This document shows, piece by piece, positions 5,611 through 32,530 of a stretch of DNA of 33,350 nt; the first letter of the stretch is position 1; the number at the start of each line of letters is the position of its first letter. The position numbers were made by a program, and so were the translations under genes. Where the stretch lies: the IMG/VR virus record IMGVR_UViG_3300036828_000438, positions 1-33,350 of that record, one strand, 5' to 3'. The stretch comes from a virus. Below the pieces are notes generated by a model. That model was not told the origin of the DNA. It ran no database searches and saw only the letters and a list, made by a program, of their open reading frames with translations.

Positions 5611-5623
5611 CCGAGTGTGGCTG

Positions 5624-7445: not shown

Positions 7446-7513
7446 GGTGTCCCCCTCCACGCGGGCGCGGTGGATGTCCTTGGGGGTCTTGCGCATGCCG
7501 CCCAGGTCTGGCT

Positions 7514-8759: not shown

Positions 8760-8767
8760 GCCCTCAC

Positions 8768-9046
8768 CTACGGCTGGGCGTCCACCACCAGCGTCTCAAT
8801 CAGCTCCCCGGCCATGTCGTACCGGTGCAGCACGCGGCGCACGTCGTAGCGGGCCTTGCGCAGCCGCCGCATGCAATCCTTGCACTCCATCTCAATCAGG
8901 TTGTCCGGCTGCACGAAGGAGGGACGGCCGCCGGTCAGCCGCAGCAGGGCGAGCAGCTTGCCGGGATGGCAGCTGCCGTCCTGGCGGGAGTACTCGACGG
9001 GGCAGCGCAGCTCCACCACCTCGACGCCGTTGTACACCTCAGCCAT
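8768..9046 (-). CDS. Com-like zinc-finger protein
   Basis: 92 residues. ATG 9046 overlaps the end of the glycosyltransferase gene by 8 bp. It has paired metal-binding motifs: ELRCPVEYS... GSCHPGKLL near the N-terminus and IEMECKDCMRRL in the second half. That is the pattern of the small Com-like/zinc-ribbon proteins found in many phages, whose prototype (Mu Com) activates translation of the mom mRNA. Here no mom-like modification gene is visible, so I call only the fold. It is followed at once by WhiB. Confidence 0.7.
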   Translation of the reverse strand: MAEVYNGVEVVELRCPVEYSRQDGSCHPGKLLALLRLTGGRPSFVQPDNLIEMECKDCMRRLRKARYDVRRVLHRYDMAGELIETLVVDAQP

Positions 9047-10250: not shown

Positions 10251-10265
10251 TGGTACTCCCCGCCG

Positions 10266-10778: not shown

Positions 10779-11212
10779 TAGCCGCCTCCCGAGGCCCACT
10801 CCAGGTCGCCGGACGGGGCGTCCCCGCCGTCCCAGTCCGTCACCCAATCCCAGACCGCCTGCCGGACGCCCTTCTCGAACTCGTGCCCGCCCGGGTCGAA
10901 GAAGTAGTGGCGGCCGGGGTAGGGGTGGTACTTGGTGGGCGCGTCCCCCCTGGCCAGCTCGAAGATGCCGGGGAAGCGGGCGTACTCGATGGTGCCGGTC
11001 CAGGTGTCGCCGCTGAACTCGCTGTGCGGGTGGCCGCTGCCCTTCAGGTGCCCGGTGATGACGTGCACCCGTCCCTCGGTGATGGTGTAGCCGAGCGCCA
11101 GCGCCCCCTCCATCTGCCCCACCGCCCGGCCCATGGGGCCTGCTTCCAGCCGGTCCAGCTCGAACCCTGCGCCGTGCGGGCCGTACAGCTCGACGTCGTA
11201 CCGGATGATCAT
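10778..11212 (-). CDS. Neck / HK97 gp10-like tail-completion protein
   Basis: 144 residues from ATG 11212 (ATGA overlap with the upstream stop). The N-terminal part has strands with an amphipathic helix (FELDRLEAGPMGRAVGQMEG). The C-terminal part has the pattern common in gp10-type proteins: an IEYARFPGIFELARGD strand/helix, then a Tyr/Pro-rich loop and HEFEKGVRQAVWDWV. It lies between the head stopper and tail terminator, as such proteins do, and should form part of the neck between head and tail. Confidence 0.65.
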   Translation of the reverse strand: MIIRYDVELYGPHGAGFELDRLEAGPMGRAVGQMEGALALGYTITEGRVHVITGHLKGSGHPHSEFSGDTWTGTIEYARFPGIFELARGDAPTKYHPYPGRHYFFDPGGHEFEKGVRQAVWDWVTDWDGGDAPSGDLEWASGGG

Positions 11213-11700
11213 GGCCCGCTCCCGGGGAACGGGGTGATGGACCCGGGCTGGATGGCCTGGCTGACCTCGATGACCTGGGCTTCCATGTGATGCGCGCCGA
11301 TGAGGTCCTGCTCGACGTCGGGGATCATGCGGAGTTCCCAGATGCCGTAGACCGGCCCGGCCACGCACTGGAGCCGGTCCCCGGCCTTGACGAACGGCAC
11401 GCCCATGGTGTCGGCGGCGCAGTCGTAGAAGACCACGCCGACCCGGTCGGGGGCACGGCCGGCCACGAACGGGGCGGGGGCGTCCTTGCCGGGCCGGACC
11501 AGGCCGATGTTGAGCAGGCACTTGAGCAGGCCGGGCTCGTCCAGGAACGGGTCCACGATGGTGCTCAGCTGCGCCCAGGCCAGGCTCATGCCGCCGCCGG
11601 GCTGGAGGCTGGGCTGGAGGCGGGACACCTGGCAGGTGCTCTTGTACAGCAGCCGCATCGGGCTCGGCCCGGTGAACCTCGGCTCGTACGGGGTGGTCAC
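11209..11700 (-). CDS. Head closure (stopper) protein
   Basis: 163 residues from GTG 11700, which overlaps the stop of the connector gene as GTGA. The sequence is beta-rich (RVGVVFYDCAADTMG, GDRLQCVAGPVYGIWELRMIPD). The segment ending in EAQVIEVSQAIQPG is typical of small head-closure proteins, which seal the capsid after packaging and bind the first tail completion protein. The assignment relies on gene order (connector, stopper, neck, terminator) and general features, not on a diagnostic motif. Confidence 0.6.
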   Translation of the reverse strand: MTTPYEPRFTGPSPMRLLYKSTCQVSRLQPSLQPGGGMSLAWAQLSTIVDPFLDEPGLLKCLLNIGLVRPGKDAPAPFVAGRAPDRVGVVFYDCAADTMGVPFVKAGDRLQCVAGPVYGIWELRMIPDVEQDLIGAHHMEAQVIEVSQAIQPGSITPFPGSGP

Positions 11701-12284
11701 GTCGGGTCCACCGGGAAGTTCTCGGCGTTGACAGCGATGAACGGGGCCTCAATCTGATCCACGTCAGCGGGGCCGAGCAGCACGGTCTGGCCCGTGCCCT
11801 CGTGCTTGCGCAGGTAGAGCACGGCGTCGGAGCGCTCCTTGATGTTCTCGAAGACCTGGACCTGCCCGTAGAAGACCCCGGCCGCGCGCTCCCGCCTGGA
11901 CAGCATCTGCACCGCGAGGTCCCACATGACGATGCCGGTGGCCTGGAGGCCCAGGCTCAGCTCCATGGCCTGCACGTTGCGGGCCTCGACCGGGAACGGC
12001 TTGGAGTAGGTGTAGGACCCGACCGTCTCCGACTCCATGGGGGAAGCGAGAATCTGCTGGTAGGGCTGCCGCAAGTAAATGTAGTCGGCGTAGGCCATGA
12101 TGCCGTTGTTGGCCAGCAGCTGATCGTCGGGCGACAGCCCTTCCCAGTCGTCCGCACCCAGCTCGGTAACGGTGGTGAAGATGAGGGTGGCCTGGAGCAG
12201 CGCCGAGTCTGCGTAGCCGGTGTAGCTGGTTTCCGCGCGGCCGGACCAGATAGCCAGCTCTCCGAGGGTGGGCACCGGGAACAT
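11697..12284 (-). CDS. Head-to-tail connector protein (gp6-like)
   Basis: 195 residues from ATG 12284; a TTG at 12290 is in frame, and neither has a convincing ribosome-binding site. The N-terminus (MFPVPTLGELAIWSGRA) and the helical core (YADSALLQATLIFTTVTEL, LANNGIMAYADYIYLRQPY) match the all-helical connector proteins of actinophages. The ETVGSYTYSKP element is a recurrent signature after the second long helix. These proteins form the ring below the portal. The C-terminal tail is longer than in minimal gp6 proteins. The gene is preceded by a 318-nt structured non-coding region. Confidence 0.78.
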   Translation of the reverse strand: MFPVPTLGELAIWSGRAETSYTGYADSALLQATLIFTTVTELGADDWEGLSPDDQLLANNGIMAYADYIYLRQPYQQILASPMESETVGSYTYSKPFPVEARNVQAMELSLGLQATGIVMWDLAVQMLSRRERAAGVFYGQVQVFENIKERSDAVLYLRKHEGTGQTVLLGPADVDQIEAPFIAVNAENFPVDPT

Positions 12285-12290
12285 GTTCAA

Positions 12291-12608
12291 GAAAATCGGT
12301 GAGCCGCGCGGGCTGGTGCCGGGACCGCGACTATAGGAAACGTGTGGGAGCTAACCTTTTAAGTCTGCCGGCCGGTGAATCTCCTGACTTCGGAACTCAA
12401 GGGCACAGCCGGCCGGCACCCCTGGGTGAAGGAGCCGACGCGGCCCTCCCGACCTGCCTCCAGCAGAAGGGTGAGACCACCTGGGCGGTAAAACTACCTC
12501 ACAGCGGCCCTTAACCAGACGGAGGACTTGACTGCCGCAGCTTGCTGGAGCTACGGCAGCCGTACGGTCTAGGCAGAGCCTTCGCGCCGGCTCCCCTGGA
12601 CTGATACG
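12291..12608 (-). other. Non-coding region with several stable hairpins
   Basis: No convincing protein lies here on either strand. Read on the minus strand it holds: an 11-bp stem with one G-U pair (12533-12560, CTGCCGTAGCT/AGCTGCGGCAG, 6-nt loop); a GAGCC/GGCTC hairpin before it; two small four-base-loop hairpins (GGTA-GTTT-TACC and GGTG-GTCT-CACC) enclosed by GTGAG/CTCAC; and a 10-bp stem (TGCCGGCCGG 12366-12375 with CCGGCCGGCA 12409-12418) whose loop contains an imperfect palindrome. A TATAGT -10-like hexamer lies near 12330-12335. It may contain the terminator of the gene at 12609, a promoter and a structured leader, or a non-coding RNA. Confidence 0.5.
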
Positions 12609-12938
12609 TCAGATGAGCGAGGCCAGGTCGACGGTGGGGCCAAGCGTGGACGGGAGCTGCACGCCGGTCAGCACCTGGTTGTCGGCGTCACCGTCCGGCC
12701 CGCTGATTCTCATGGTGATGGTGTAGGTGAACGGGGGCAGGGTGCTGTCCGTGGTAGGCAGGTTGATGGCGTCCATGACCCCGTTGCGCACGGTAGCATC
12801 CGCCGAGCCCAGGAAGATGGCCGGCATGTCGGGGATGTCCACCGCCTTGTCCGTGCTGAACAGGACGAAGCCGTTGAGCGGGGTGCCGTCCAGCGTGGTG
12901 ATGCTCTGGCCCGTCACCTGAATCATGGTTACCGGCAT
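12609..12938 (-). CDS. Stand-alone tail-type beta-sandwich protein
   Basis: 109 residues from ATG 12938 (GGGTGA upstream). An earlier in-frame start at 12971 lies inside the previous gene. It reads as one beta-sandwich: VTGQSITTLDGTPLNGFVLF, a default-value segment, then TLPPFTYTITMRISG and GVQLPSTLGPTVDLASLI. In actinophages this pattern, ending in LPxxxGPxVDLAxL, is normally the N-terminal virion-anchoring domain of a minor tail protein. Here it is a complete short gene placed between capsid and connector genes. It could be a capsid-surface decoration or an adaptor for a separately encoded fibre. The structured region 12291-12608 follows. Confidence 0.6.
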   Translation of the reverse strand: MPVTMIQVTGQSITTLDGTPLNGFVLFSTDKAVDIPDMPAIFLGSADATVRNGVMDAINLPTTDSTLPPFTYTITMRISGPDGDADNQVLTGVQLPSTLGPTVDLASLI

Positions 12939-12942
12939 GGAA

Positions 12943-13677
12943 TCACCCGAACGCCGGGGCGGGGACGCCACGGCCGCGCGCCTGCTCGGCGGCGTCGGCC
13001 TGGCGGAGCTGGTCCTCGGTCGGCCCGGCGAACTTCCCGCTCTTGTCCATGGTGGCCAGCTCCTCGTACATGCCCCGGCCGGCCGTGTAGGACCGGCGGC
13101 CAGGCCAGGGGCCGTGCTCGAAATACTGCTTGCCGTACCGCTCTACCTGCTCATACCGGGTCAGCATGATCCACCTGCTGGCGTCCGGCCAGCGGGGGTG
13201 GCCCGGCCCGATTTCCATTTCCTGGCCCCGGTACCAGACCCGGCCGGCGAAGGTGAACCCGTCGTCGACGAAGTGGATGACAATGGCCTCGCCCGGCGTC
13301 TGGACAATCCGCTCGGGGGCCTGCTCGAACTGGGCGGTGACGGTGACGGCGGCAGCGTGCTGGGCGTCCCGCGCGTCCCGCTCCTCGGCGGTGAGCTGCG
13401 CGGCTGGCTTGGGCGGGACCAGCTCGGGCTTAGCCCCGGCCGGTGCCGCGTCCATGGGCAGTCCGCACGCCGCGCAGAATGCGGCACCGGGGACATTGGG
13501 GTGGCCGAACGCGCCGCAGAGCACGCTGTCGTCGTGGTCGCGGGGGGTGAGGACGCTGCCGCCAGCCGCCGGGAACGGAAGAGAGGTCGCGCTTCCTGCC
13601 CGCTGGCTGGCCAGCAGCGCCTGCGCCACAGCGGGCACGTCCACGATCTTAGCGTCCTTGGCGCGGATTCCGGTCAC
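12943..13677 (-). CDS. Zinc-ribbon protein with long C-terminal domain
   Basis: 244 residues from GTG 13677; the ribosome-binding site is weak and the gap to the upstream stop is 13 bp. A double-knuckle motif lies at about 54-78 (VLCGAFGHPN... FCAACGLPMD), the type found in phage proteins with a C-x(n)-H/C...C-x2-C ribbon. A Pro/Ala/Glu linker follows. The C-terminal half (IVQTPGEAIVIHFVDDG, AGRVWYRGQEMEIGPGH, then WIMLTRYEQVERYGKQYFEHG) looks like a compact beta-rich domain followed by helices. I do not recognise the family. It sits between the capsid and connector genes. Confidence 0.65.
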   Translation of the reverse strand: MTGIRAKDAKIVDVPAVAQALLASQRAGSATSLPFPAAGGSVLTPRDHDDSVLCGAFGHPNVPGAAFCAACGLPMDAAPAGAKPELVPPKPAAQLTAEERDARDAQHAAAVTVTAQFEQAPERIVQTPGEAIVIHFVDDGFTFAGRVWYRGQEMEIGPGHPRWPDASRWIMLTRYEQVERYGKQYFEHGPWPGRRSYTAGRGMYEELATMDKSGKFAGPTEDQLRQADAAEQARGRGVPAPAFG

Positions 13678-13690
13678 GGCGAGGCTATCG

Positions 13691-13957
13691 TCACAGATTG
13701 GCCAGCGCCCTCATGGTCTGGCAGCCCAGGCACGCGCACACGCTGGCCCCGCCGCAGCGCGGGCACCACCAGTAGGGCTCGTTCACGCCCGGCGACCAGC
13801 AGCCAGCCACGGGCTCGTGCTTCTCGGCCGGGATGCCGCAGCGCCCGCACGTATCGGGCACGTGGTGCCGCGAGCCGTCCGGGTAACGCCCCCCGGGAAG
13901 CGAGCAGGCCCGGGGGCTCCGGGCCTGCTCCTGGGTGCTATCGCTTGCTTCCGACAT
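13691..13957 (-). CDS. Small zinc-ribbon protein
   Basis: 88 residues from ATG 13957 with GGAGGAAGG upstream; it overlaps the basic peptide gene by 20 bp. It is Cys-rich: TCGRCGIPAEKHEP, then WWCPRCGGASVCACLGCQTM. These give at least two C-x2-C pairs and a His, enough for two zinc sites. The N-terminal 30 residues are Ser/Arg/Pro-rich and probably disordered. It is coupled to the gene upstream and precedes another zinc protein. No function can be assigned. Confidence 0.65.
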   Translation of the reverse strand: MSEASDSTQEQARSPRACSLPGGRYPDGSRHHVPDTCGRCGIPAEKHEPVAGCWSPGVNEPYWWCPRCGGASVCACLGCQTMRALANL

Positions 13958-19293: not shown

Positions 19294-19608
19294 TCATGCC
19301 GGTGATTGTACGGGCGTCAGCGCCTCGCTGGCCGCCTGGTGCCGGGCCAGGGTCAGCGCGTACCGGGCGGTGGACCCGTCCGGCACGTCGATCTCGTACC
19401 ACCGGCCGAAGTAGGGCGGCAGCTGCTCCAGCATGGCCACGTGCTGGCTCCAGCTGGCCTTGGTGCCCCTTGCCGCCATCTGCCCGTACGCCTGCCCGGT
19501 GATGTCCTCGTCGGCGGGGATGGCGGCCGAGTCGGGCACCTTCCCCTTGACCGGGGGGAGGAACACGACGGTCGGCCCCAGCTTGGATTCGTAGACCAGT
19601 GCCTTCAC
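19294..19608 (-). CDS. Small phage protein, unknown function
   Basis: 104 residues. GTG 19608 overlaps the stop of the gene upstream as GTGA; longer frames read into other genes. It begins with beta strands (KALVYESKLGPTVVFLPPVKG). A helical middle follows (ITGQAYGQMAARGTKASWSQHVAMLEQL) and the end contains WYEIDVPDGSTARYALTLARH. I do not recognise it. It belongs to the coupled chain giant protein, 130-aa protein, this gene, and ends just before a terminator hairpin. Confidence 0.65.
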   Translation of the reverse strand: MKALVYESKLGPTVVFLPPVKGKVPDSAAIPADEDITGQAYGQMAARGTKASWSQHVAMLEQLPPYFGRWYEIDVPDGSTARYALTLARHQAASEALTPVQSPA

Positions 19609-19997
19609 TTGTCCGGCTCCCCTCGTATCACGGTGTCTCCGCCGTGCGGCACGGCAGTAATGGAATCCTGGCGGTCCTTCTCCATGAGCCGGACCATCTC
19701 CGGTTGCAGGCTGCCCGACCAGACCATGGTCTGGTCGATGGTGTCGAACCGGACCCGGACGGCCCGGGGGGCTGACCGGAACTGCTCGTAGGACAGCACC
19801 TGGAGCGGGCCGAACACCTTGTGCGACCCGGAGTAGACCGGGAACCAGACCACCGGGTCGAGCCCGGCCATGCCGGTCACCACCACCCGGGGGACGTGGT
19901 AGTTGGCGTGGTTGCGCTCCTCGAAGTACGCGAGCAGGCCGTACGGGAACTCCCGGTCCAGCTTGGCCTGCCAGCGGGCCACCTGCTCGTCGGTCAC
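19605..19997 (-). CDS. Small phage protein coupled to the giant gene
   Basis: 130 residues from GTG 19997, which overlaps the giant gene stop as GTGA. An upstream in-frame ATG (20045) would lie inside the giant gene. The N-terminus has a helix (EQVARWQAKLDREF) and the middle is beta-rich (HVPRVVVTGMAGLDPVVWFP, VFGPLQVLSYEQF, AVRVRFDTIDQTMVW). The family is not recognised. Tight coupling to the giant gene suggests a chaperone or partner of that protein; this is inference. Confidence 0.65.
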   Translation of the reverse strand: MTDEQVARWQAKLDREFPYGLLAYFEERNHANYHVPRVVVTGMAGLDPVVWFPVYSGSHKVFGPLQVLSYEQFRSAPRAVRVRFDTIDQTMVWSGSLQPEMVRLMEKDRQDSITAVPHGGDTVIRGEPDK

Positions 19998-22900
19998 GGC
20001 TTCTCCCCCTGGTGGAACGGGCAGGTGCACCCAGGCGTCGTGCACACCGGGTCGTGGTCAAGCCCGTCACCGTCACCGTCACTCGTGGTGCTGGCAGGGA
20101 TAGCCAGCTTGGCGATGATGTCCTTCAGCTGCGCGTTGGTGAGGCCACCGGACTGCACCGGGGGGCTGTAGCTGAACGTGCCGCTGGCAGTGGTGTAACC
20201 CTGGCTGCCGCTGATGTCGGCGTACAGCTCAGGCTCGACCTGCCACTGGACGAGGGGGCCGCTGTACAGGTGCTTGGAGTGGATGGTGCCGGACGTGATG
20301 TTGGCCGTGCTCGTGGCGACCGGCACGTTGAGGGTGACGTACTCATTGCCGAAGGCGTCCTGGTGCTTCTCGGCGGTGAGCCCGGCCTGGGATTCGATGT
20401 CCATGGCCTGCTGGCCCTTCAGCGCGGCCTTCTCCGCTGCGGTGGCGTCGGCAGGCAGCTCGGCCACGCTCCAGTCGACCGGGGCGGCTGGCACGAACCA
20501 GGTCCCGGCCTGCTTCTCCAGCGCCTTGCGGGCCTTGTCCAGCGCCGTGCTCACGCCGTACTCGGTGACAATGCGGTCCTCGACCGGCAGGCCCCGGATT
20601 TCGGTGATGCCGAACCCCTTCAGGTCCTTGATGATCTTCTGCCGCTGGGTCTCGCTGTACGCCTTGAGCACCTCGATGTCGTCGAGCAGGCTGATGGCGT
20701 CCGGCACCATCATCTCGTTCCCGCCGCCGCTGTGCTGGGTGTGGTGGCCGTAGTCCCAGTGGGAATACTCCTTGCGGGATGTCACCTCACCGAACTTGTC
20801 GGAGCCGAAGCTGTAGCTGCCGAGCTGGGCGGTGACCCGGGGGCTGACCCAGACGTGGTAGCTGCTGCCGGACAGGTTCTGCCGCAGGAAGACGAACCCG
20901 GAACTGCCGTGCTGCTGGTCACTGTCCCAGCTCATGCCGGGCTTGTGGGTACCCAGCGCGCGGAGCCGGGCCTCGGATGAGTACAGGCCGCCTGACCGGG
21001 CGACCAGCACCGCATCCCGCTCCGGGCCGCCGTCCGCGTTGAAGCTGTTGATGAGGAAAGCCTTCTTGGCCACCTGCTCCGGGGTCACGTCGAAGCGGTA
21101 CCAGATGGGCTTGCCGCCCGGCACGGTCTTGGCGTGCATGCTGTAGTGGTTGAAGTGCGGCATGTACCCCTGGCTGTCCGCCCACGCCTTGACCTTCTCC
21201 GGGCTGGCCATGTGCGCCATGGCCTCGCGCCAGATTTTGGCTTCGTCCTCGGCGGGCAGGCCCAGGGCGGCCAGCTTGTCGATCATTCCGCGCACCGGGC
21301 CGTGAATCTGGGACAGAGGGATGCCCGAGCCCTTGGCCAGCGCCCCCCACATCTTCTTCTGCGCGGGATTCTGCCGGTCGGCCCGGTCACCCATGTCGGC
21401 GGCGGCCAGCCGCCAGTACAGGTTCTCCATGGCCCCCTGGGTGGCTTCCTTCATGGGCAGCCCGGCCTCCTGGAGGAAGCCCCGGACATTCTCCAGCGAG
21501 CTGGAGCCCTGGTCGTGCACGGCCAGGAACCGGACCCGGCCCTGCTGCGCCTTGGGGCTGTTGGCCGGGTCGCTGATCTCGATGACTTCCCCGGTCGGCA
21601 GCTTGACCTCGTACACGCTGCCGGCATAGTGCGTGAGCAGCCCGGCCTTGAGCACCAGCTCGCCGGTCTTGGGGTCCAGCTGCCAGCTGTCAGCGGTGAG
21701 GTTAGCCGAATTGGTGCCCAGCTGCCGGGTGGCCGTCTTGGGGCCGGCGACCTGGATGCCGCCGGCTGCCTCTGACACCTTCCCCTTCAGCTCGAAGGCG
21801 GGGAAGTCGCCTACCTCCGGTATGGTGTCCTGCACCTTGGCCAGGTTCACCTTCTGAATCTGATCCAGGTAGAACTTGGCCATCTCCACGACCGCGTGCG
21901 GGTCGCCGTACTTATCCAGCGCGGCCAGGTACTTGGCGCTGGACGCCCCCGCCTCCAGCGCCGCCTCGGACTCGTGCAGCCGCTGCTCCAGCTTGTCCTT
22001 GACCTCGTTCATGGCCAGCAGGGCCGCATCACTAATCGGGCCGTACAGGACGAACTTCTTGCCGTAGGGGTTCTCCGGGGTGAGCGAGTGCGTGCTGACC
22101 GCCTCGGCGGCGGTGAGGATGGCCTGGTGGAACTCGTACTCGTCCTTGGGCGCGAGCTTGGCGGCCTCCCCGCTGTGGCTCTTAACCCAGGCCAGGAGGT
22201 CAGACAGGGACTTGCCGCGCAGCTCGAACTCGCCCCGGGTAGCGGGCTTGCCACTGGGGTTGATTTCCTGCCAGACGTGCACGGCACCCCGGGCCAGGCC
22301 GGGCTCGTCGAAGAAGAAAGCAACCCCGGCGCTCTTGGCACTGGCGACGTGCTCCATGCCGTCGACCTCAGAGAACCCGGAGTGCGCACCGCCTTCCAGC
22401 GCGGTGACGGGCACCTCGGGCGGGGTCCAGCCAAGCTTGGCGTAGGCGCTGTCCCACAGCGCGGTGATGTCATTGACCAGGCTGTTCTTGCGGGCAACCA
22501 GCGCGGCGACCCCGGCCGTGCTGAGCCCGGTGCCGCCGAGCAGCTGGGAGAACCGGGCGTCGGGCAGCTTGCACATCCGCTGCGCGACCCGCACCGCGCC
22601 GATGTACGCCTCGTCGGCGGATGCCTTGGACACCCCGCCGCTGGCCATGGAGTCGAACAGCAGCGAGACAGGCTGCTTGAACTGCTCGTCCAGATGATCC
22701 AGGCTCGCGCCCTGCCACTTCAGGCCGGTGAACGCGCCGGGCTTGCCGGCGCTGACCACGGACCCGTCGTGCATGACCAGGTAGCTGCCGGCGGTGGAGG
22801 ACGGGTTGCCGAGCAGGTAGTCCAGCACGTGCTCGCGGGCGATGTCCGCGAGCTGCTTGTCGGTCAGGCTGGTCAGGCCGCCCGCGACGTGAGCCAGGCT

Positions 22901-25900
22901 GCCCTTCGGCACCACCTCGTCGGTGAGGATGCCGGGGGTGCCGTCCTTCTCCAGCTTGGCCCACTCGGCCTTGGGCGTCTTGAACCCAAAGGCCCTGGCC
23001 AGCGAGTTGACCGCGATGCGCGAGGCCATCTCGGGCTTGGTGCCGCTGAACCACAGCTTGGTGTTGCCGTTCTGGTCCCGCACGTAGCCGGGCTTGCCGT
23101 CGACCAGCTCCCACTTGGGCCGCAGCTCTTCTTCCTTGGCCTTGGCCACCACGTCGTCCAGGTATGCCTGAACGGCGGGCTTGGCGTAGTAGCCGCTCTG
23201 GTGCAGCCATTCGGCCGGGGTAAGGCTGGAGCCCTGGTCGCTGATGAGCTGCTGGGCGAACGGGGCGAGCGCGGCCTCGTTGTGGTTCACGAAGTCCTGG
23301 GTGGCCTCGTTAGTCCAGGACTTGGCCGGGGTGGCGTCCTCCAGGAAGACGCTGTAGCTCTTGGCCGGGGTGAGCGTGTCGTGCCAGACGGGCGGCGCGG
23401 TGAGCGGCTGCTCCTTGCCCTGGTACCGCTCGGCGGCGGTGCGGGACAGCTCGTCGACGGCTTCCTGATCCCCGTTGCGGTGCAGCTTGACCAGCAGCCG
23501 GCGCTCCTTGGCGCTCAGGTACGCGGCGTGCTGGACATTGACCTTGATGAGGTAGTTGTCTACCTCGTCCTTCAGCGGCGTGATGCCCGGGTCGGACCAG
23601 TTGCCCTCGATGGTCTGGCTGGCCGGAATCTGCCCGCTGTCCCACGGTGCCCAGGTCATGTGGTGCGTGACGGTGTTCTCCGGTGCGCCGGGGTGGGCCG
23701 GGCTGACCTTCCCGCCCTTGGCGTCCAGGTTGAACACGGTCTGCATGTCGCCCTTTTTCCAGGCGTGCAGCCAGGCGAGCCGCTCGGGCTTGGTCAGGCC
23801 GGACTTGTGGGTGCCGACCACCTTGCCGCCGCCGTACTGCTCGCTGACGGCCTCGATGACCGAGGCCAGCTGCGGGGAGCCCATGGCGGCCAGCACGTCG
23901 TTCGCCAGTGACCCGTCGAACGGCTTGGCGTACCCCTGGCCGGCGAAGCTGAAGATGTCCTTGGGGCCGTAGATGCCGGGCGGCAGGCCCTTGAGGAACT
24001 TGACCTCAGCCGGGGCCTCGGCCTTGGCCCCGGCCTGCTGCTGCGGGATGCTCAGCAGCTCGTTCATGAGGCCCATCAGCGCGTGGTACTGGTCCTCGCC
24101 GTTGCCGGACAGGCCCTTGTCCTCCACGAAGGCCAGGACCCGGTTCATGGCCTCGTCCTGCGGGACGCCGATGCCGGCCCAGAACACCGGAGCCCACTTG
24201 TACCCGCCGGTCTGCTGGAGCTTGTTGCGGAGGCCCTCGACCTCCATGTAGGTCATGCCCTGCCCGCCGAACAGGTGGTACACGGACGGCATGGTGCCCG
24301 GCTCGACCACGGTATTGCCGTACTTGTCCAGCACCATGCCGCCCTCCATGGAGGACGTGGTGCCGAACAGCGTGCCGTGCTCCCCGGTCGACGGGTCCTG
24401 CCACAGCGCCGAGCCGTCCTCGTGGACGGTGATGTGCTCGCTGCCGTTCATGCCATGGGCGTCGGACCAGAGCTTGTAGCTGCCGGGCGCGGCGGTGGTG
24501 GCGTACTTGTTGGCGAAGAACGCCTTGGGGACCAGCGGCTTCTCGGTCTCCCAGTACTCGGTGTTCTTCTGAAGCTGAGACGCGGCGAAGGAGGGGGTCT
24601 TGGCGGCGGTGTTGCCCGAGGTGTCGTGCCAGATGAATGCGGCGGTGCCGCCGGGCTTGCCGTACTTGTGCTTGTGGTACTTGCCGTAGTTCTTGGCTTC
24701 CTTGACCTCCAGGAACGCCTTGCCCTTGGGGCTGTAGTAGAACCCGAACTTGTAGACCTTGCCGTCGACGGTGACCGCGCCGGGGGTGAGCGCCTGCTTG
24801 ACGTGGTCGATGATCTCGGAGACCGGGATGTCCTCCGTCAGCCCCTCCGGGTACTGCGGGCTGGGCTTGAAGTGGTGCTGGACCTTGAGGCTCTCGGGAT
24901 TGAAGTGCCAGTATTCGCTGGCGTTGTGCGGGGTGTAGCCGGCGCTTCCCCAGCCGCCGCCCCCGGCGTACTGGAAGATGTACTGGGCCTGGGAGGCGTA
25001 GTGGCTCTTGCCGCTCAGCTTCTCCGCGACCTGGCCCTTCCAGCTCTTGTCCGCGTCGGCCTTGGAGATGGCGGCGGTATGCGCCCACGTCTTGACTTCC
25101 GCGATTGCCTTGGCCTCGGCAATCTCCTGCTCGGTGGGCGCGGGAATCTCGTGGATGGTGCCCGCCGCGAGCTGCTTATCCCCGCCGTAGTAGCTCTTGG
25201 ACAGGTTGTTGCCGTAGCTGCTCTCCAGCCATGACCCGTCCGGCTGCTTCACGTAGTAGGGCGTGTACCCGTACTCGGGCTTCGGCCCGCTGTAGAACTT
25301 GGACCCGGCCGGGACCATGCCCAGGATTTTGTTATCCAGGATGGCGGGGATTTCGGTGACGACGTCGGCCGGCTTCTCCTTGCCGTACTCCACCAGAGCC
25401 CCGCCGGCGGCCAGCGCGTCGAGCTTCTGCGGCTCGCTGGTGCCCTGATCCCCCTGCTGGCCCTGGACGAAGATGCCCCAGGACCCGTCGCCGTACTTGA
25501 CGTAGTAGGCCGCCGCGTCGTCCTGAGTCTTGGCCGTGGCGGCGTGCCAGTACACCGTGGCGTCGGCGGGAATACTGCCGACCCCCTTGCCCTTGATGGT
25601 GAGCGGCTTGGTGGCCGGCTCCGCCTTGGGCGCAAGGTGCGGCTCCACGTCCGGCTCGGGCGCGTGCTCGGGTGCCCCGCTGGTCTCCGCCAGCAGCTTG
25701 GCGCTGGCCGACAGCGGCTTGAGCAGCCCGTTACCGATCCAGTTGTCCAGCGCCGCGTTCGTGCCCAGGATGTGGACGCCGCCGCCGGCGTACTGGAGGG
25801 ACCAGGTGCCGTCCTCGTGCTTGATGTAGGTGCCGTAGCCCGGCTCCTGGGTGTCCTGCCAGGTGGAATCCCCCGGCTCGCCTATGTAGATGTCCTTGCC

Positions 25901-28879
25901 GATACCGGGCAGCCAGACCTTCTCGGGCTTGGGTGGCTCGGCGGGCTTGGGCGCAGCCTTCTCGATCTTCTCCGGTACCAGCTGGCCGCCTGTGACCCAC
26001 TGGTCGTACTTCCCGGCAGACGGCTCCCCGTAGGTGCCGAGGCTGCCGTACTTCTGCCAAGTACCGTCCTTGAGCTTGACGTACTTGAAGTTCGCGGACT
26101 CCGGGTAGGCCCCGGTCCCGTGGTAAATGACCGCGCTCTTGGGAACCTGGGCGACCGTCTTGCCCTTGACCATTACGTCCTGCATGGCCTCGGGCTCAGC
26201 CTTGGCCTCGGGCTCAGGCGCAGGCTTGGGCGGCTCAGGCGCAGGCTTGGGCGGCTCAGGCGCAGGCTTGGGCTCTTCCTTCTTGAGCAGCTGGGCCAGC
26301 TTGAGCACCATGCCGCTGGAGAACGCGGTCTCGCTGCCGTCCTTGCCGACCAGGATGACCTGGTGGTCCGGCGTAATCCGGTAGTACAGCTCCCCGGGCG
26401 CTCCCCAGGCCCCGGTCAGACCCGGTGTCTTGGAGAACTTCCAGCCGCCGCCCTCCTTGGCCAGGATGTACCGGGTGGCGTTTAGCTTGGCCGACCCCCA
26501 CAACGCGGACGCCAGCGCGTTGTCCACGTCCCCGGCCACCCCGGGAACGTCCTTGGACGTGGCCAGCAGGATTAGCTGGTTGATGTCCTTCCAGTCCGGG
26601 GCAGCGGCCTTCCAGTCGTCTGGGAACATTTCCGCTGCCGGGGGTGGCGCAGGCGGGACCTTGACCTCGGGCTCGGGCAGCGGCTCGGGCTTCGGGGCCT
26701 CAGCCTCGGGCTTGGGCCAGTTGATCTTTACTGGCTCAACGACGTTGACCTTGAGCTTCGGGGGCGGCTTGGCCTCCGCCGGGTACGGCTTGACTTCCTC
26801 CTTGGGCGGGGCAACCGGGGGCTTCTCAGGCTCGGGCACGGCCTCCGGGGGCGGCTTAATCCAGGACTTGGCGTCAGCCAGCGTCATGTCCGCCGCGTAG
26901 TCCTTCTGCTCGCCCCCGATGGTCATGGTGACCTTGTGCTCGGGCGAGGCGGTGAACCAGCTGTAGCCCTTGGCGGGCGGGCTGAAGTCCACTTCCCAGG
27001 TGCCGGGAGTGGCGTGGCTGGCGAAAGCGTAGGTGTTGACCTTGTTGTGGTGCGCGTAGAGCAGCGCGGCGGCGACCGCCCCGTGCGGGTTGTTCGCCCA
27101 CCCGGGCTTGAGCGCGCTGACCTTCTGCCCGGCCAGCGCGTGCAGCTCCGCTGACTGGTCGTGACCCGTCTCCTGGTCAGCCTTGGCCAGCTCGCCGGCG
27201 TGCTCCTTCAGTGACTCCAGCATGAGCAGCTTGGTGGACCAGGATTTGGCCGTGTCCGGGTGGGCCGTCTTGTACTTCTTGGCCTCGCCCATGTAGTCGG
27301 CGGTGGCAAGCGGGTTGCCCGTCTTCTTCATGGCCTGGCTGAAGCTCTGCTTGCCGCCCATGGTCTGCTGGAGCCAGTCGGCGGCCTCCTGGAGCTGTTC
27401 CTTGGTGGCGGTCTTGCCGCCCCAGCTGTAGGTGTGCGGCGTCAGGTCCTGGGCGTGCTCGGCGGCGGCCTCGGCCTTGGCCGTGGTCTCCTCGGTGACG
27501 TGCTGCTCGGCCTCGGTGGCGCTCAGCTCGTCCAGCTTGCCCGCCAGGTGGTGCAGTATGGCCAGCTTGACCTGGCCGACGTGCTTGGCCTTGGTACCTT
27601 TCGGTACTAGTAGCCCCGGGTACTTGGCCAGCTCGGCCTTGGAGACGGCCATGTAATCCATGTCCGCCAGCGGGTTCCCGGCGTTCTTCAGCGGCCCCTT
27701 GACGTTGGTGGACAGCTTGGAGTTCAGCACGCTGATGGCGTGGTGGATTTCCTCCTTGGTCACCGGGATGCCGCCGATGTCCACCTTGACCGCCTCCGCG
27801 CCGGTCGACTCGGCGGGAGCCGGCTTGGCAGCCACCTTGACCATGGGCGTCACCTTGGCAGGCTCCGGTGGCGCGGGCGGCGGCTCAGGCTTGGGGGTGG
27901 TGGGTGCGACGTGCGACGGCGCGGGCTCGTGCGTCTCGTGGTCTTCCTTGACCAGCTGGCCCTTGGCAGCCCACTTCTCCAGGTTGGCGGCGGTAGGCGG
28001 GTTGATCTTCTCGACCTTGCCCGTCTTGCCGACGTAGTGCCAGTCCCCGGTATCCGGGTCCTTGGCGAACTTGCCGGTCAGCTTGTCCTCGGGGGCGGTG
28101 GACGACTTGTGCACCTGCCAGTGGTGCGGCACCCAGGCAGCATGCTTGCCGCCGATGGTGACGGCCTTCTTCGGCTCGGGCTCGGGGAGCTTCTTGTAGT
28201 GCGCGGCCAGGTTGCCGATGGCCATGGCCGACGTGGGCACCGGCTTGCCCGGCATGTCGTCGTCACCTGGGTGCAGCACGACGTGCTCGGGGTTCGGCCC
28301 CTTCTTCACCACGATCTTGGGCGCGTTCTTGACCTGCGCCTCGTCGCCGGTGTCCACGTCCTTGGGGACGTGCACCTCCAGGCCGTTGTGCACCGCGTAG
28401 GTGTGGTTCCCGGCCTGCACGTAGTGGTGAGTACCCTGCTCGACGGCCTGCTTGGCGTCCCCCGGCTTCCACTGGTTGGCCTTCCACAGCTCCGGGGTAA
28501 TGGAGTGCACCATGTGCCCCGGCTGCCCGGCGACCCAGTGCTCCTTGCCGTGCGGGATGATGAAGTCCCCGATGTTGCCGTGGAACTTCTCCTCGCCCAG
28601 GGCGCTGGCGATTTTCTTGGGGGCGTGCCCTCCCTTGACAGTCTTGCCTGCGCCGGCCGGGCCAGCGGCACCGGCTGCCGCCTCGGAGATGGTCTGGCCG
28701 GGCAGCCCGGCACCGGGGGCTCCCGCGCCCGGCCCGGCATCCCCGCCTCCCGCATCCGCCAGGGCGACCAGCCCGGAAGCGGCCAGCACGATGTTCTTCT
28801 TGTCCTTGGCCAGGTGCGCGTAGTGCGCCTTGAGCTTCTTGTGCTCAGGCGTGTCATCCGGCCACGACGGGAGTGCCAT
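19994..28879 (-). CDS. Giant multidomain virion protein, 2961 aa: repeats, kinase-like and ART-like domains
   Basis: ATG 28879 with an excellent GGGAGGT site. Domains: N-terminal Ala/Gly-rich helical part; helical modules around 366-440 and 483-545, each with a NPLA-x2-DYM motif; proline-rich linkers at about 317-350, 674-752, 866-893, 967-989 and 1064-1097; five related modules of about 65 residues (about 244-310, 904-965, 994-1057, 1095-1165, 1184-1245) sharing Y-x-x-YVK-x2-DGSW and ending G-x-LV. Residues about 1930-2110 look like the HipA/PI-kinase-like domain seen in phage MuF-region proteins, but NHDSH is NPSST at 2025-2029 and IDKG is AGKP at 2044-2047. Residues about 2560-2790 look like a phage ADP-ribosyltransferase: R2628 before GGLYSSE, then GNEMMVPDAISLLDD with E2722. 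The end has DGDGDGLDHD plus a Cys/His cluster. No signal peptide. It follows MuF, so packaging in the capsid and ejection into the host is the leading inference. Confidence 0.85.
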   Translation of the reverse strand: MALPSWPDDTPEHKKLKAHYAHLAKDKKNIVLAASGLVALADAGGGDAGPGAGAPGAGLPGQTISEAAAGAAGPAGAGKTVKGGHAPKKIASALGEEKFHGNIGDFIIPHGKEHWVAGQPGHMVHSITPELWKANQWKPGDAKQAVEQGTHHYVQAGNHTYAVHNGLEVHVPKDVDTGDEAQVKNAPKIVVKKGPNPEHVVLHPGDDDMPGKPVPTSAMAIGNLAAHYKKLPEPEPKKAVTIGGKHAAWVPHHWQVHKSSTAPEDKLTGKFAKDPDTGDWHYVGKTGKVEKINPPTAANLEKWAAKGQLVKEDHETHEPAPSHVAPTTPKPEPPPAPPEPAKVTPMVKVAAKPAPAESTGAEAVKVDIGGIPVTKEEIHHAISVLNSKLSTNVKGPLKNAGNPLADMDYMAVSKAELAKYPGLLVPKGTKAKHVGQVKLAILHHLAGKLDELSATEAEQHVTEETTAKAEAAAEHAQDLTPHTYSWGGKTATKEQLQEAADWLQQTMGGKQSFSQAMKKTGNPLATADYMGEAKKYKTAHPDTAKSWSTKLLMLESLKEHAGELAKADQETGHDQSAELHALAGQKVSALKPGWANNPHGAVAAALLYAHHNKVNTYAFASHATPGTWEVDFSPPAKGYSWFTASPEHKVTMTIGGEQKDYAADMTLADAKSWIKPPPEAVPEPEKPPVAPPKEEVKPYPAEAKPPPKLKVNVVEPVKINWPKPEAEAPKPEPLPEPEVKVPPAPPPAAEMFPDDWKAAAPDWKDINQLILLATSKDVPGVAGDVDNALASALWGSAKLNATRYILAKEGGGWKFSKTPGLTGAWGAPGELYYRITPDHQVILVGKDGSETAFSSGMVLKLAQLLKKEEPKPAPEPPKPAPEPPKPAPEPEAKAEPEAMQDVMVKGKTVAQVPKSAVIYHGTGAYPESANFKYVKLKDGTWQKYGSLGTYGEPSAGKYDQWVTGGQLVPEKIEKAAPKPAEPPKPEKVWLPGIGKDIYIGEPGDSTWQDTQEPGYGTYIKHEDGTWSLQYAGGGVHILGTNAALDNWIGNGLLKPLSASAKLLAETSGAPEHAPEPDVEPHLAPKAEPATKPLTIKGKGVGSIPADATVYWHAATAKTQDDAAAYYVKYGDGSWGIFVQGQQGDQGTSEPQKLDALAAGGALVEYGKEKPADVVTEIPAILDNKILGMVPAGSKFYSGPKPEYGYTPYYVKQPDGSWLESSYGNNLSKSYYGGDKQLAAGTIHEIPAPTEQEIAEAKAIAEVKTWAHTAAISKADADKSWKGQVAEKLSGKSHYASQAQYIFQYAGGGGWGSAGYTPHNASEYWHFNPESLKVQHHFKPSPQYPEGLTEDIPVSEIIDHVKQALTPGAVTVDGKVYKFGFYYSPKGKAFLEVKEAKNYGKYHKHKYGKPGGTAAFIWHDTSGNTAAKTPSFAASQLQKNTEYWETEKPLVPKAFFANKYATTAAPGSYKLWSDAHGMNGSEHITVHEDGSALWQDPSTGEHGTLFGTTSSMEGGMVLDKYGNTVVEPGTMPSVYHLFGGQGMTYMEVEGLRNKLQQTGGYKWAPVFWAGIGVPQDEAMNRVLAFVEDKGLSGNGEDQYHALMGLMNELLSIPQQQAGAKAEAPAEVKFLKGLPPGIYGPKDIFSFAGQGYAKPFDGSLANDVLAAMGSPQLASVIEAVSEQYGGGKVVGTHKSGLTKPERLAWLHAWKKGDMQTVFNLDAKGGKVSPAHPGAPENTVTHHMTWAPWDSGQIPASQTIEGNWSDPGITPLKDEVDNYLIKVNVQHAAYLSAKERRLLVKLHRNGDQEAVDELSRTAAERYQGKEQPLTAPPVWHDTLTPAKSYSVFLEDATPAKSWTNEATQDFVNHNEAALAPFAQQLISDQGSSLTPAEWLHQSGYYAKPAVQAYLDDVVAKAKEEELRPKWELVDGKPGYVRDQNGNTKLWFSGTKPEMASRIAVNSLARAFGFKTPKAEWAKLEKDGTPGILTDEVVPKGSLAHVAGGLTSLTDKQLADIAREHVLDYLLGNPSSTAGSYLVMHDGSVVSAGKPGAFTGLKWQGASLDHLDEQFKQPVSLLFDSMASGGVSKASADEAYIGAVRVAQRMCKLPDARFSQLLGGTGLSTAGVAALVARKNSLVNDITALWDSAYAKLGWTPPEVPVTALEGGAHSGFSEVDGMEHVASAKSAGVAFFFDEPGLARGAVHVWQEINPSGKPATRGEFELRGKSLSDLLAWVKSHSGEAAKLAPKDEYEFHQAILTAAEAVSTHSLTPENPYGKKFVLYGPISDAALLAMNEVKDKLEQRLHESEAALEAGASSAKYLAALDKYGDPHAVVEMAKFYLDQIQKVNLAKVQDTIPEVGDFPAFELKGKVSEAAGGIQVAGPKTATRQLGTNSANLTADSWQLDPKTGELVLKAGLLTHYAGSVYEVKLPTGEVIEISDPANSPKAQQGRVRFLAVHDQGSSSLENVRGFLQEAGLPMKEATQGAMENLYWRLAAADMGDRADRQNPAQKKMWGALAKGSGIPLSQIHGPVRGMIDKLAALGLPAEDEAKIWREAMAHMASPEKVKAWADSQGYMPHFNHYSMHAKTVPGGKPIWYRFDVTPEQVAKKAFLINSFNADGGPERDAVLVARSGGLYSSEARLRALGTHKPGMSWDSDQQHGSSGFVFLRQNLSGSSYHVWVSPRVTAQLGSYSFGSDKFGEVTSRKEYSHWDYGHHTQHSGGGNEMMVPDAISLLDDIEVLKAYSETQRQKIIKDLKGFGITEIRGLPVEDRIVTEYGVSTALDKARKALEKQAGTWFVPAAPVDWSVAELPADATAAEKAALKGQQAMDIESQAGLTAEKHQDAFGNEYVTLNVPVATSTANITSGTIHSKHLYSGPLVQWQVEPELYADISGSQGYTTASGTFSYSPPVQSGGLTNAQLKDIIAKLAIPASTTSDGDGDGLDHDPVCTTPGCTCPFHQGEKP
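26211..26273 (-). repeat. Three perfect tandem 21-bp repeats in the giant gene
   Basis: Three exact copies of a 21-bp unit (26211-26231, 26232-26252, 26253-26273) encode PKPAPEP repeats at about residues 869-890. Perfect DNA identity points to recent slippage or expansion, so linker length may vary between relatives. Confidence 0.9.
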
Positions 28880-28890: not shown

Positions 28891-29121
28891 TCAGGCGTCG
28901 GTCTCATGCAGGCCCGGGACCCTGGTAATGGCATCGGAGACGCCTTCCAGGTCAGGACCCGACAGCCACAGGCCCTGCTCTACCATTTTACCAGAGTCAA
29001 GCGGCCCTACGATGAAGTCAACCTCGTGGTCCCGGGCGTATTCCACCACCGTGGCCATGGCAATGTTGTACAGCAGGGCACTGTCATTCTCGGCGCGGAA
29101 CCGCCTGGTCACGTCAGCCAC
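28891..29121 (-). CDS. Small phage protein, unknown function
   Basis: 76 residues from GTG 29121, overlapping the upstream gene by 8 bp and ending 11 bp before the giant gene start. It is mostly helical at first (RRFRAENDSALLYNIAMATVVEYAR), then has strand-like DHEVDFIVGPLDSG and an acidic end. The family is not recognised. Close packing suggests co-expression with the giant protein. Confidence 0.6.
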   Translation of the reverse strand: MADVTRRFRAENDSALLYNIAMATVVEYARDHEVDFIVGPLDSGKMVEQGLWLSGPDLEGVSDAITRVPGLHETDA

Positions 29122-29374: not shown

Positions 29375-29754
29375 CGGGTTCCCCATGCCTTCCGGTGCCT
29401 CCAGTCCCTGCGGCACTCCTCGGCCGGGCAGTCCGGGCCATTGCTGCACACCGCGTAGGCACCCCCGGCCCCCAGGCGGCGTACCTCGTTGAGCGCGCAC
29501 TGCTCCGCCGCCACGTCCGTGTCGTGCTCGTGATGGCAGTGCCACGAATCAGGGCGGGCAACGCGGCTGTTCTCGGGATACGTCGCCACCACGGCCCCGT
29601 AGTACGAACCCCGCCACCCGCCGCCTGCGGACATGACCTGGCGGCCGAACTCGCGCGCCTGGGCCTGGACCTCGAACAGCAGGCGGTAGTGCTCCCGCGC
29701 CTCCTTGCGCTCAAGCTCTGCCAGCTCACGTCTCAGGTCATCCAGCCTCGTCAT
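29371..29754 (-). CDS. Coiled-coil protein with Cys/His cluster
   Basis: 127 residues; ATG 29754 overlaps the MuF gene stop as ATGA. The first 35 residues are heptad-like (DDLRRELAELERKEAREHYR), a probable coiled coil. The C-terminal half is rich in Cys and His (WHCHHEHD, AEQCALNE, AVCSNGPDCPAEECRRDW) and may bind zinc. Function unknown; the place behind MuF suggests a virion or head-assembly role. Confidence 0.65.
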   Translation of the reverse strand: MTRLDDLRRELAELERKEAREHYRLLFEVQAQAREFGRQVMSAGGGWRGSYYGAVVATYPENSRVARPDSWHCHHEHDTDVAAEQCALNEVRRLGAGGAYAVCSNGPDCPAEECRRDWRHRKAWGTR

Positions 29755-30740
29755 AGCCCTGCCAGCCTCCTGAGCGCCATGCCCAGCTCGTGCACGGCGG
29801 CCCGGAGGAACGCCATGAGGGACCGGTACCTCGCCTCGGGCAGGGCGCGGATGTCAGCGGCAGCCAGGAACTCACCGGCAGCTTGGGGAGCGGGGGACCG
29901 TCCGCCGGGAGCAGCCTGGCCGCCGTCTGATGATACGGGCACGAGCACGATCCTGCACCGGCACCGGGGGTGCAGCGGCGGGCCGGGCAGCATGCCGTGG
30001 TACAGCCTGGGCGGGTGCGTCCAGATGATGGCAGTGCCGATGCGCTGGTGGTACCGGTCCTCCCCGGCCGGGGTGGCGACGTGCCGGGTGGCCGTCTCAT
30101 GCTGGACGGCGACCGGGCCGGGGAGCGGGAACTGGGCATGCAGGGGGACCGTAGTGCCATCCAGGAACCGGCACCACATGCAGGTCTTGCCGTCCCTCCT
30201 GGCCACCCACCGCTTGCGGACCTGCTCCCCGGCAGCCTCCCGCTCGGCCCCGGCCTCCAGGACTGCTGCGGTCTGGGCGGCAGCCCTGGCGACCTGGAGT
30301 GACAGCCCGTGGCTAAGGAGCCGGTCTCTCGCAAACCCCACGATAGCGCGGCGGACGGCGGCGGCCCGCCGGATGGCGGCCTCCATGTGCGGGACCGTGC
30401 CGGGCGGTGTGACACCCACAATGAAATGAGCGTGCGGGACCGAGGCGTGCGCGTGCCGGATCGCGTGCCGCAGGTGCGGCAGGGAGTATTGGGCCTCGAT
30501 GTCGTCGAGCAGGTGCTGGTAGTACGCAGTCTGAGCGGCGTCCGCCGAGTTCCATTCGTCTTCCAGCTCAGCGACAGCCAGGTTCCGGGCGTCTTCCAGC
30601 GCCTGCGCGAGCAGGGCCTCGATGTCCGGCCTGGCCAGCAGCGCGTCGGCACTGCCGTAGGGGTTGTTCCGCACGACCAGGGCGATGTAATCCGCGAGCT
30701 GGGCGAAGACGGCGTGCAGCGAGACAGTGAGGGTAGGCAC
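29751..30740 (-). CDS. MuF-like minor capsid protein
   Basis: 329 residues from GTG 30740 (weak ribosome-binding site). The C-terminal part has the MuF signature: TCMWCRFLDGTTVPLHAQF at about 190-208 and PLHPRCRCRIVLVPV at about 254-268, in which the paired CxxC and HPRCRC motifs form the conserved core. The first 180 residues are helical. A Pro/Gly/Ala-rich tail of about 60 residues follows. MuF proteins bind the portal or inner head and are sometimes fused to toxins or enzymes. Here the enzymatic domains are instead in separate neighbouring genes (zeta-like upstream, giant downstream). Confidence 0.85.
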   Translation of the reverse strand: MPTLTVSLHAVFAQLADYIALVVRNNPYGSADALLARPDIEALLAQALEDARNLAVAELEDEWNSADAAQTAYYQHLLDDIEAQYSLPHLRHAIRHAHASVPHAHFIVGVTPPGTVPHMEAAIRRAAAVRRAIVGFARDRLLSHGLSLQVARAAAQTAAVLEAGAEREAAGEQVRKRWVARRDGKTCMWCRFLDGTTVPLHAQFPLPGPVAVQHETATRHVATPAGEDRYHQRIGTAIIWTHPPRLYHGMLPGPPLHPRCRCRIVLVPVSSDGGQAAPGGRSPAPQAAGEFLAAADIRALPEARYRSLMAFLRAAVHELGMALRRLAGL

Positions 30741-31084: not shown

Positions 31085-31263
31085 CGGGCCAGGCCCTCGC
31101 GCACCATGTAGGCCACCGCCTGCGCGGCTGACTCCCAGTGCCGCTGGATGACGGCCTCCTGCTGATCCCACCGGGGCAGGTGCTCGGCCCGGATGCTCAG
31201 CCACCCGGCGTCCTCCGCGTAGGCGTCGTAGGCCACCTGGCCCAGCGACCGCAAGTCAACCAT
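31081..31263 (-). CDS. Small phage protein, unknown function
   Basis: 60 residues from ATG 31263, overlapping the zeta-like gene by 8 bp. The pattern 'LAxxAYxxYAExxGW... LPxWDxx... IxxxWExAAxAV' (here LGQVAYDAYAEDAGWLSIR and HWESAAQAVAYM) is one I recall from many short phage and actinobacterial proteins without known function. It starts a GTGA-coupled chain with the next gene. Confidence 0.7.
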   Translation of the reverse strand: MVDLRSLGQVAYDAYAEDAGWLSIRAEHLPRWDQQEAVIQRHWESAAQAVAYMVREGLAR

Positions 31264-32530
31264 GCGCCGTCCTCCTTCTCAGCTCCTCGACGCTGGGGAT
31301 GGCACCACCACTGTCTGACGCCGAACCGCTGGATTCCGTCCGGCGCGGTGCTCCCCCGGAATTGTCCCAGTGCTCCCAGGAGTCCAGGGACGGCTTGGCC
31401 ATGTCGAAGGCGTCGTTGTTCTGGCTGGACCCTCCCGAGGTCTCAGCGGCAGCCAGAGCGCCGCTCATGGGCAGCTTCGCGCCCGCGCCCTTGCCCTTGC
31501 GGTACTTCTCATGGCCGGCCCGGTGCGCCCGGTGCGCGCTGTCCACAGCATTGTCCACCGGGGTGTGGACAAAGACGCCGTGCACGCTGTAGCCGTTATC
31601 CCGCAGCCGCTGGGCGTGCTGCTCGACGTGATGCGCGCTGGCCATGGGCATGTGGACGGCCAGGTTCTTGCCGCGCTTCATGGCCAGGTCCGCGATGAGA
31701 TGCGCGATGTGCACGGCCTCCTCGTGCACCAGGGGACTGCCCTCGGCCGGGGATAGCCCCCTGATCTCGGGTATAAGGCCGAGGGCGGCCATGGCCTCCT
31801 TGACCAGCTCGGGGTCCGCGTGCACGTAGTCCTCTGGCTTGAGGCTCCCGGCCACAGACGTACGCCCTGGGTGCCGGAAGCCGCCCACCAGCATGCCCTG
31901 GCGGCTGGACGGCACGTCGGTGGCGCTGTCCAGCGCCTCATGAGCCAGGTCAGTGTGCACCGAGGCCCGCTCCGGGGACCAGATGCGGCCCTTGCCGTCC
32001 AGGGTGTGCTCCTGGCTGGTGGCCCGGCCGGATTTCAGCGCCCTGGCCACCGCATCCTCGGCGTACCGCTGGTGGCTGGCGTGCTCGTCCGGGGTCCACG
32101 CCTTGTAGGTGCCGGGCAGCGGAATCCCCTGCGCGGCCTGCTGGCTGGCGTGCTGCTCCACCTCCTTGGACGCGCTCTGGTACTCCCCTACCTTCTGCTC
32201 CCAATCCCCGTACTTGGCCAGCTGGTCCTTAGCGTCCTGGAGCTGGAGAGATTTAGCATCCGGCCCGGCCGGGGGCTCATACGGCCGGGGCGTGCTGCGG
32301 TAGGCGATGCGGCTGATCGTGTCGTGCGGGTGCTCGCGGACCAGGTGATGGCCCAGGTGCGGGTGGACCGCCCCGGCTCCTTCCCTGGCTGGCGGCGGGG
32401 TGGCGGTCGGCGGCGGCAGCGGCGGGTTGTCGGTGCGGGGCGGGGCGGCCAGCTCCAGCACGCGGGCCGCCGCGATGTCCTCCACCAGCGACCTGGCCAG
32501 CGCGGTCAGCGCCTCCTCGGCTTCGCTCAA
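31256..32530 (-). CDS. Zeta-toxin-like P-loop protein with degenerate Walker A
   Basis: 424 residues from TTG 32530 with GGAGC six to eight bases upstream. Residues 1-200 are helical, Ala/Gln/Glu-rich. From about 207 the zeta-toxin/UDP-GlcNAc-kinase pattern can be followed: GMLVGGFRHPGRTSVAG with the loop GGFRHPGRT at 216-224, YVHADPELVKEAMAALG with D239 in the place of the catalytic Asp, LVHEEAVHIAHLIADLAMKRG (from 267; shown in part), VHMPMASAHHVEQHAQ and the Arg motif AHRAHRAGHE. The usual Walker Lys is Arg223, so activity may be reduced, lost or changed. A disordered tail follows. It lies between portal and MuF. Zeta toxins phosphorylate UDP-GlcNAc and block wall synthesis; a virion-packaged effector is plausible, and no antitoxin is visible. 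Confidence 0.72.
   Translation of the reverse strand: MSEAEEALTALARSLVEDIAAARVLELAAPPRTDNPPLPPPTATPPPAREGAGAVHPHLGHHLVREHPHDTISRIAYRSTPRPYEPPAGPDAKSLQLQDAKDQLAKYGDWEQKVGEYQSASKEVEQHASQQAAQGIPLPGTYKAWTPDEHASHQRYAEDAVARALKSGRATSQEHTLDGKGRIWSPERASVHTDLAHEALDSATDVPSSRQGMLVGGFRHPGRTSVAGSLKPEDYVHADPELVKEAMAALGLIPEIRGLSPAEGSPLVHEEAVHIAHLIADLAMKRGKNLAVHMPMASAHHVEQHAQRLRDNGYSVHGVFVHTPVDNAVDSAHRAHRAGHEKYRKGKGAGAKLPMSGALAAAETSGGSSQNNDAFDMAKPSLDSWEHWDNSGGAPRRTESSGSASDSGGAIPSVEELRRRTAHG

Follow-up and report, generated by a model that had tools for sequence, protein, structure and literature searches.

The giant gene and its place in the head operon

The window, a 33,350-base IMG/VR virus record (IMGVR_UViG_3300036828_000438) of a soil phage, contains one very large gene, hereafter the giant. 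It is an unbroken, ATG-started frame of 2961 codons on the minus strand (19994-28879), which confirms the single large gene proposed in a preliminary description of this DNA and adds the strand to it. Long homologues were found in at least 11 other phage contigs; in these independent viral contigs they comprise 2543-3544 residues as stop-to-stop frames, share about 26-65% identity over long stretches and have their modules in the same order, which excludes chance as the source of the frame. The homologues are full or nearly full in G001 (2716 aa, at a contig end), G003, G004, G005, L093, L099, L105, L108, L110 and L111, and partial in L109.

In the direction of transcription, a Mu-type portal precedes a zeta-toxin-fold protein, which is followed by MuF and short genes. 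The giant comes next, and after it a 146-aa gene, a Mu-like protease/scaffold and an E-type capsid protein. The giant thus sits between the portal/MuF and the protease/capsid genes, and these families surround it as in the portal-terminase head operons in which polyvalent proteins are encoded. Apart from the giant and the zeta-fold gene, the head operon is ordinary. The earlier placement of the giant in the head operon behind MuF held, but not its direct adjacency to MuF, because two or three short frames intervene (29754-28891), as they do in the relatives. The features are as follows:

31256..32530, minus strand: zeta-toxin-fold protein with a degenerate Walker A motif
29751..30740, minus strand: MuF head protein, with the 22-aa head-operon motif at 30024-30089
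28891..29121, minus strand: 76-aa conserved gene, just upstream of the giant
19994..28879, minus strand: giant gene, 2961 aa, based on the frame and homologues
28556..28615, minus strand: residues 89-108 of the giant, a diverged stretch at the place of the L094 motif, positioned by alignment register
27185..27784, minus strand: two helical modules of about 90 aa, residues 366-565 (two-copy reading by eye only)
26630..26857, minus strand: Pro/Glu/Lys-rich linker, residues 675-750, with further linkers at about 318-362 and 868-900
25124..26182, minus strand: four DG[TS]W repeats, residues 900-1252
23480..24082, minus strand: most conserved module, residues 1600-1800 (GDM..VF..DA..GKVSP.HPGAP.N..TH)
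22430..23125, minus strand: kinase fold of the HipA/CtkA/PI4K group with catalytic residues lost, residues 1919-2150
21770..22417, minus strand: conserved module, residues 2155-2370, with a NUDIX domain inserted just before it in G003 and G005
21245..21682, minus strand: conserved module, residues 2400-2545 (LPTGE ... YWR)
20495..21094, minus strand: ADP-ribosyltransferase fold, DarT-like, residues 2596-2795, with invariant E2722, and R2595 and R2640 nearby
19605..20045, minus strand: 146-aa partner gene, seen only in giant-carrying phages

Kinase and ADP-ribosyltransferase folds of the giant

The structural check of the kinase-like region was run on an AlphaFold2 model of residues 1760-2830 (a 1071-residue span), with a predicted local distance difference test (pLDDT) score of 62.7 overall and mostly 70-80 over the kinase. 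Residues 1919-2150 adopt a fold of the HipA, CtkA and phosphatidylinositol (PI) 3-/4-kinase type: the best VIA match was CtkA (Z 12.8), followed by PI4K, LepB, actin-fragmin kinase and PI3K. The 50 VIA matches listed were CtkA, PI3-/PI4-kinases, actin-fragmin kinase, mTOR and LepB, and HipA was among the Foldseek matches. Two homologues gave Pfam matches, to PI3_PI4_kinase in L099 (E 0.0012) and to HipA_C in L105 (E 0.013). Most homologues keep the active-site motifs (ATP-site lysine, D-x4-N and ID[KI]). The ATP-site lysine and the catalytic D, N and D are present in nine homologues and in gp54 of a Mycobacterium abscessus prophage but absent from the window giant, G001 and G004. These three form one clade (support 100/99) and the motif loss could be polarised on the tree, so that the domain, earlier called a decayed kinase, deserves that name. 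The pseudokinase fold was retained in this clade across substantial divergence after the loss, which suggests that it still has a job. A second kinase-like segment was observed in mid-protein of the L099 frame (3155-13786; residues ~1097-1336, hidden Markov model (HMM) E 2e-3); segments 34-42% identical to it were found within large proteins of other phages, those of Gordonia, Pseudomonas and Aeromonas included, and some of these proteins are annotated as ADP-ribosyltransferase.

The ADP-ribosyltransferase (ART) region was poorly modelled in the 1071-residue span (pLDDT about 40) and was therefore folded separately. Residues 2545-2800, folded alone with 15 sequences, reached a pLDDT of 81.5 and a predicted template modelling score (pTM) of 0.83. 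The top matches by Z of residues 2596-2795 were ADP-ribosyltransferase-fold proteins, in agreement with the ART-like domain first proposed; DarT1 came first (Z 10.4 over 155 residues) and, below it, other DarTs (Z 7.3-8.8 for the DarT2 structures), tRNA 2'-phosphotransferase and known ART effectors and toxins. The fold is thus of DarT type, and both structural checks set out in the preliminary description, one for each enzyme-like domain, came out in its favour. E2722 is invariant in all 15 sequences, as is R2595 in the 13 that reach this position; E2722 also aligns with the glutamate of the DarT QAE motif, in a profile alignment that is not significant, and is a candidate catalytic glutamate judging from sequence conservation. 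The Pfam DarT model (PF14487) matched none of the 15 ART members, and the ART profile gave nothing significant against PDB sequences. As sequence-level membership of DarT is lacking, the domain is said to work like DarT, not to be one. The ART of the giant is probably a working enzyme.

The kinase and ART folds bring at least two domains of disparate activity into one polypeptide, the kinase of the window being catalytically degenerate. Further cargo was found in the homologues: a NUDIX domain lies between the kinase and the next module in G005 (L057; Pfam E 5.8e-16) and, by alignment and the Nudix-box pattern, at the same place in G003. MuF is a separate gene in the window and no MuF domain is present within its giant; in L105 a MuF-like N-terminus (Pfam E 0.034 only, with the MuF Cys/His pattern present) is joined to the C-terminal modules of the giant. 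In the M. abscessus prophages, gp54 has a MuF-type VG15 domain first, then a homologous kinase and last an ADPrib_exo_Tox domain. Taken together with the gene's setting, we consider the giant to be, with good though not full confidence, a head-borne and injected polyvalent effector.

Accessory insertion and the head-operon motif

The whole giant had no significant match in Pfam, PHROGs, NCBIfam, PDB sequences or phages; as a query it matched nothing in 50,697 phage records, nor in viral contigs through its own peptides. Relatives were reached with the capsid protein, which retrieved 61 viral loci and the isolate Microbacterium phage Magritte (49.5% identity), and some of these loci hold homologous giants at the same position. 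Additional homologues came from profile-guided scans, and a genome scan gave one weak match, in a Rhodoferax metagenome-assembled genome contig. The modules at 1600-1800, 2155-2370 and 2400-2545, the kinase and the ART co-occur in every frame that is long enough, and are found in none of the giant-less relatives from the capsid search. In about 25 related phages whose contigs cover the region, the giant gene is absent; the homologue of the 76-aa gene directly follows MuF, and the protease lies within a few kilobases. The 146-aa gene was present only alongside the giant among the relatives compared. Giant and partner are thus an accessory insert, absent from most relatives. A chaperone, a partner or an immunity protein are all possible for the 146-aa product.

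The relatives also bear on a tape-measure protein or a part of the tail machinery, for which length only speaks and which is hardly credible. The giant gene precedes that of the capsid; G024 and G025 each hold a giant plus a homologue of the Magritte tape measure, and G003 has a separate 3651-codon frame resembling a tape measure. The tail genes of the window phage lie outside the window. With a tape-measure homologue or candidate distinct from the giant in each of three giant-bearing phages, this reading was rejected, and the earlier statement that the giant is not a tape measure was right for the relatives.

It is also conceivable, though unlikely, that the giant is a structural or ejection head protein, with enzyme folds kept as building blocks and with size, repeats and linkers serving DNA ejection or core formation. 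The Pro-rich linkers and repeat modules noticed at the outset are indeed extensive: Pro content is 13-17% in three of the four 200-residue blocks between residues 201 and 1000, and the DG[TS]W-centred repeats, of ~75 residues each, all have a domain E-value of 1.7e-16 or better. Separate proteins of 250-381 aa, encoded elsewhere in related phages, match residues ~365-469 as well. The kinase fold persists throughout a deep clade that has lost the catalytic residues, and the adjoining zeta-fold protein is degenerate too: its Walker A reads GGFRHPGRTS in the window, with the lysine replaced, versus GGPPGAGKTT and GGLGGAGKTT in relatives, G003 and G005 retaining the lysine. As both proteins are degenerate, enzyme activity would seem dispensable in this lineage. 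Against a structural protein stand the constancy of E2722, the absence of the gene from the phages mentioned above and its rate of change. Between the window and its nearest relative, G001, the ratio of nonsynonymous to synonymous polymorphism (pN/pS) was 0.75 for the giant, about three times that of the capsid gene (0.24), and 0.30 and 0.16 for the protease and the decoration protein, in a single-pair comparison in which codon bias inflates all values, so that they serve as a relative measure only. By domain, the kinase was not specially relaxed (0.69 versus 0.70 for the ART), within the same limit of codon bias.

The N-terminus of the zeta-fold protein matches short proteins at the same place in giant-less phages, so that this gene, too, appears to combine an enzyme domain with a protein of the head operon. 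Intact-looking copies of the zeta-toxin fold were seen in G003, G005 and G025.

A 22-residue motif, RxVxTPxGAxxYGxPIGxxI, was first spotted at the N-termini of several giants and then located by HMM inside MuF proteins, at one portal C-terminus and in short genes; it was thus found after the fact, by following these proteins. In actinophages it is common to MuF, the N-termini of giants, zeta-toxin-type proteins, ADP-ribosyltransferases and small genes of the head operon. It occurs at E up to 1 in 14 of 15 phage records, with one to three copies each, and the clear matches with checked context all lie in head-operon genes. Besides the window MuF, it is borne by L063, L093, L099, L103, L108, L110, L111 and L120, and in G025 it sits on a zeta-toxin protein (Pfam zeta E 1.9e-20). 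In L120 (3088-6222), a 1045-aa protein with the motif has a zeta-toxin domain, and GNAT-like and RelA-like stretches seen by eye only. The consensus peptide matched 38 of the 50,697 phage records, 37 of them from phages of actinobacteria, with weak single E-values (4e-4 to 8); the matching genes are annotated as ADP-ribosyltransferase, head maturation protease, RNA ligase, HNH or HTH protein, or hypothetical. In the three records opened, the motif genes lie between portal/head-morphogenesis genes and capsid/tail genes. By analogy with T4-type capsid-targeting tags, this distribution hints at a candidate head-loading tag.

In the window, the motif is clear only in MuF. The corresponding residues 89-108 of the giant gave no significant match, having diverged below detection, and the G003/L094 copy lies at residues 79-98 (E 0.0018). 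The missing signal would suit a late intracellular protein that is not packaged and whose target before lysis could be, for example, the host or a superinfecting phage. Such a protein appears quite improbable in view of the MuF fusion in L105, the analogous MuF-kinase-ART protein of M. abscessus prophages and the clear motif copies in six homologous giants.

Proposed function and comparison with known systems

As an injected effector, the giant would be made together with the late head genes, would probably get into the prohead with or through MuF, and would be injected into the cell along with the phage DNA. Delivery with the DNA is an inference to which the MuF fusion, the head-operon position, the motif and the fast evolution point. 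Inside the cell, the C-terminal ART would modify a host macromolecule, DNA or RNA being plausible because the nearest fold is DarT. The kinase, active-looking in most relatives and here a pseudokinase, may bind a target or hold the protein together. Several points weigh against this effector reading. Foldseek E-values were weak for both the kinase (best 0.0036) and the ART (best 0.0043), and the two fold cases rest on the consistency of matches, the VIA Z-scores and the motifs. An hhalign comparison of the ART profile with seven DarTs was not significant (probability 0.6%), the first-strand His of DarT was not seen in the window protein, and the rate difference comes from one pair. Virion proteomics was not found for any member of the giant family. 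More tentatively, and on balance doubtfully, actinophages might share a capsid-targeting tag of ~22 residues that sorts unrelated cargo (kinase-ART giants, zeta-type proteins, ARTs and MuF) into heads, with the kinase cargo of this lineage a retained pseudoenzyme and its DarT-like enzyme active.

Very large head-operon phage proteins are usually annotated as hypothetical, and the giant resolves into toxin-type enzyme folds: its kinase is HipA-like and its ART DarT-like, some relatives add a Nudix domain, and a zeta-type protein adjoins. Polyvalent proteins of phages and conjugative elements are a known class (Iyer et al., 2017; PMC5512222), virion-packaged ARTs and Nudix enzymes have precedent (PMC9503650), and polyvalent effectors as a class are thus already known. 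In the literature searched, though not exhaustively, no description was found of the domain combination, an ART fold of DarT type encoded in the head operon of a phage, the pseudokinase clade or the motif. Like polyvalent proteins, the giant combines unrelated enzyme folds including an ADP-ribosyltransferase in one chain, encoded with portal and head genes. It differs from them (PMC5512222) in that their ARTs are described as belonging to the HYD2 clade and its own is nearest DarT, that their kinases are described as being without a C-lobe and its kinase is of the HipA/PI-kinase group, and that the window giant is without any recognised Pfam domain.

The M. abscessus prophage protein (e.g. prophiFSQJ01-1 gp54) shares the homologous kinase and the order MuF, kinase, ART, but is a single 1170-aa protein with ADPrib_exo_Tox and matches neither the repeats nor the DarT-like domain. 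DarT (PF14487), the toxin of the DarTG system, has the same fold as the giant's ART, which differs in having no sequence-level match and in lying within a giant protein of a phage; a DarT-like enzyme borne by a phage would mean that the phage wields the fold of a weapon that bacteria use against phages. Another precedent is gp27 of Burro (>4,400 residues), regarded as virion-associated because of a gel band of ~250 kDa (PMC7302621). Magritte gp17, Forza gp80 and a 3289-aa protein of DSL-LC01 are likewise large head-operon proteins; the first two share the N-terminal motif and the last shares the ART module (HMM E 4e-6), but gp17 and gp80 carry other cargo, Acetyltransf_1 (E 0.0012) and ADPrib_exo_Tox, respectively. 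The internal proteins of T4 have a capsid targeting sequence (PMC3012670), which, like the motif, is short and common to otherwise unrelated head proteins; unlike it, the actinophage motif also lies inside MuF proteins, and the two are likened without sequence comparison. If it is a loading tag, the motif would allow injected effectors to be sought by sequence across actinophages and would provide a testable mechanism for the sorting of cargo into their heads.
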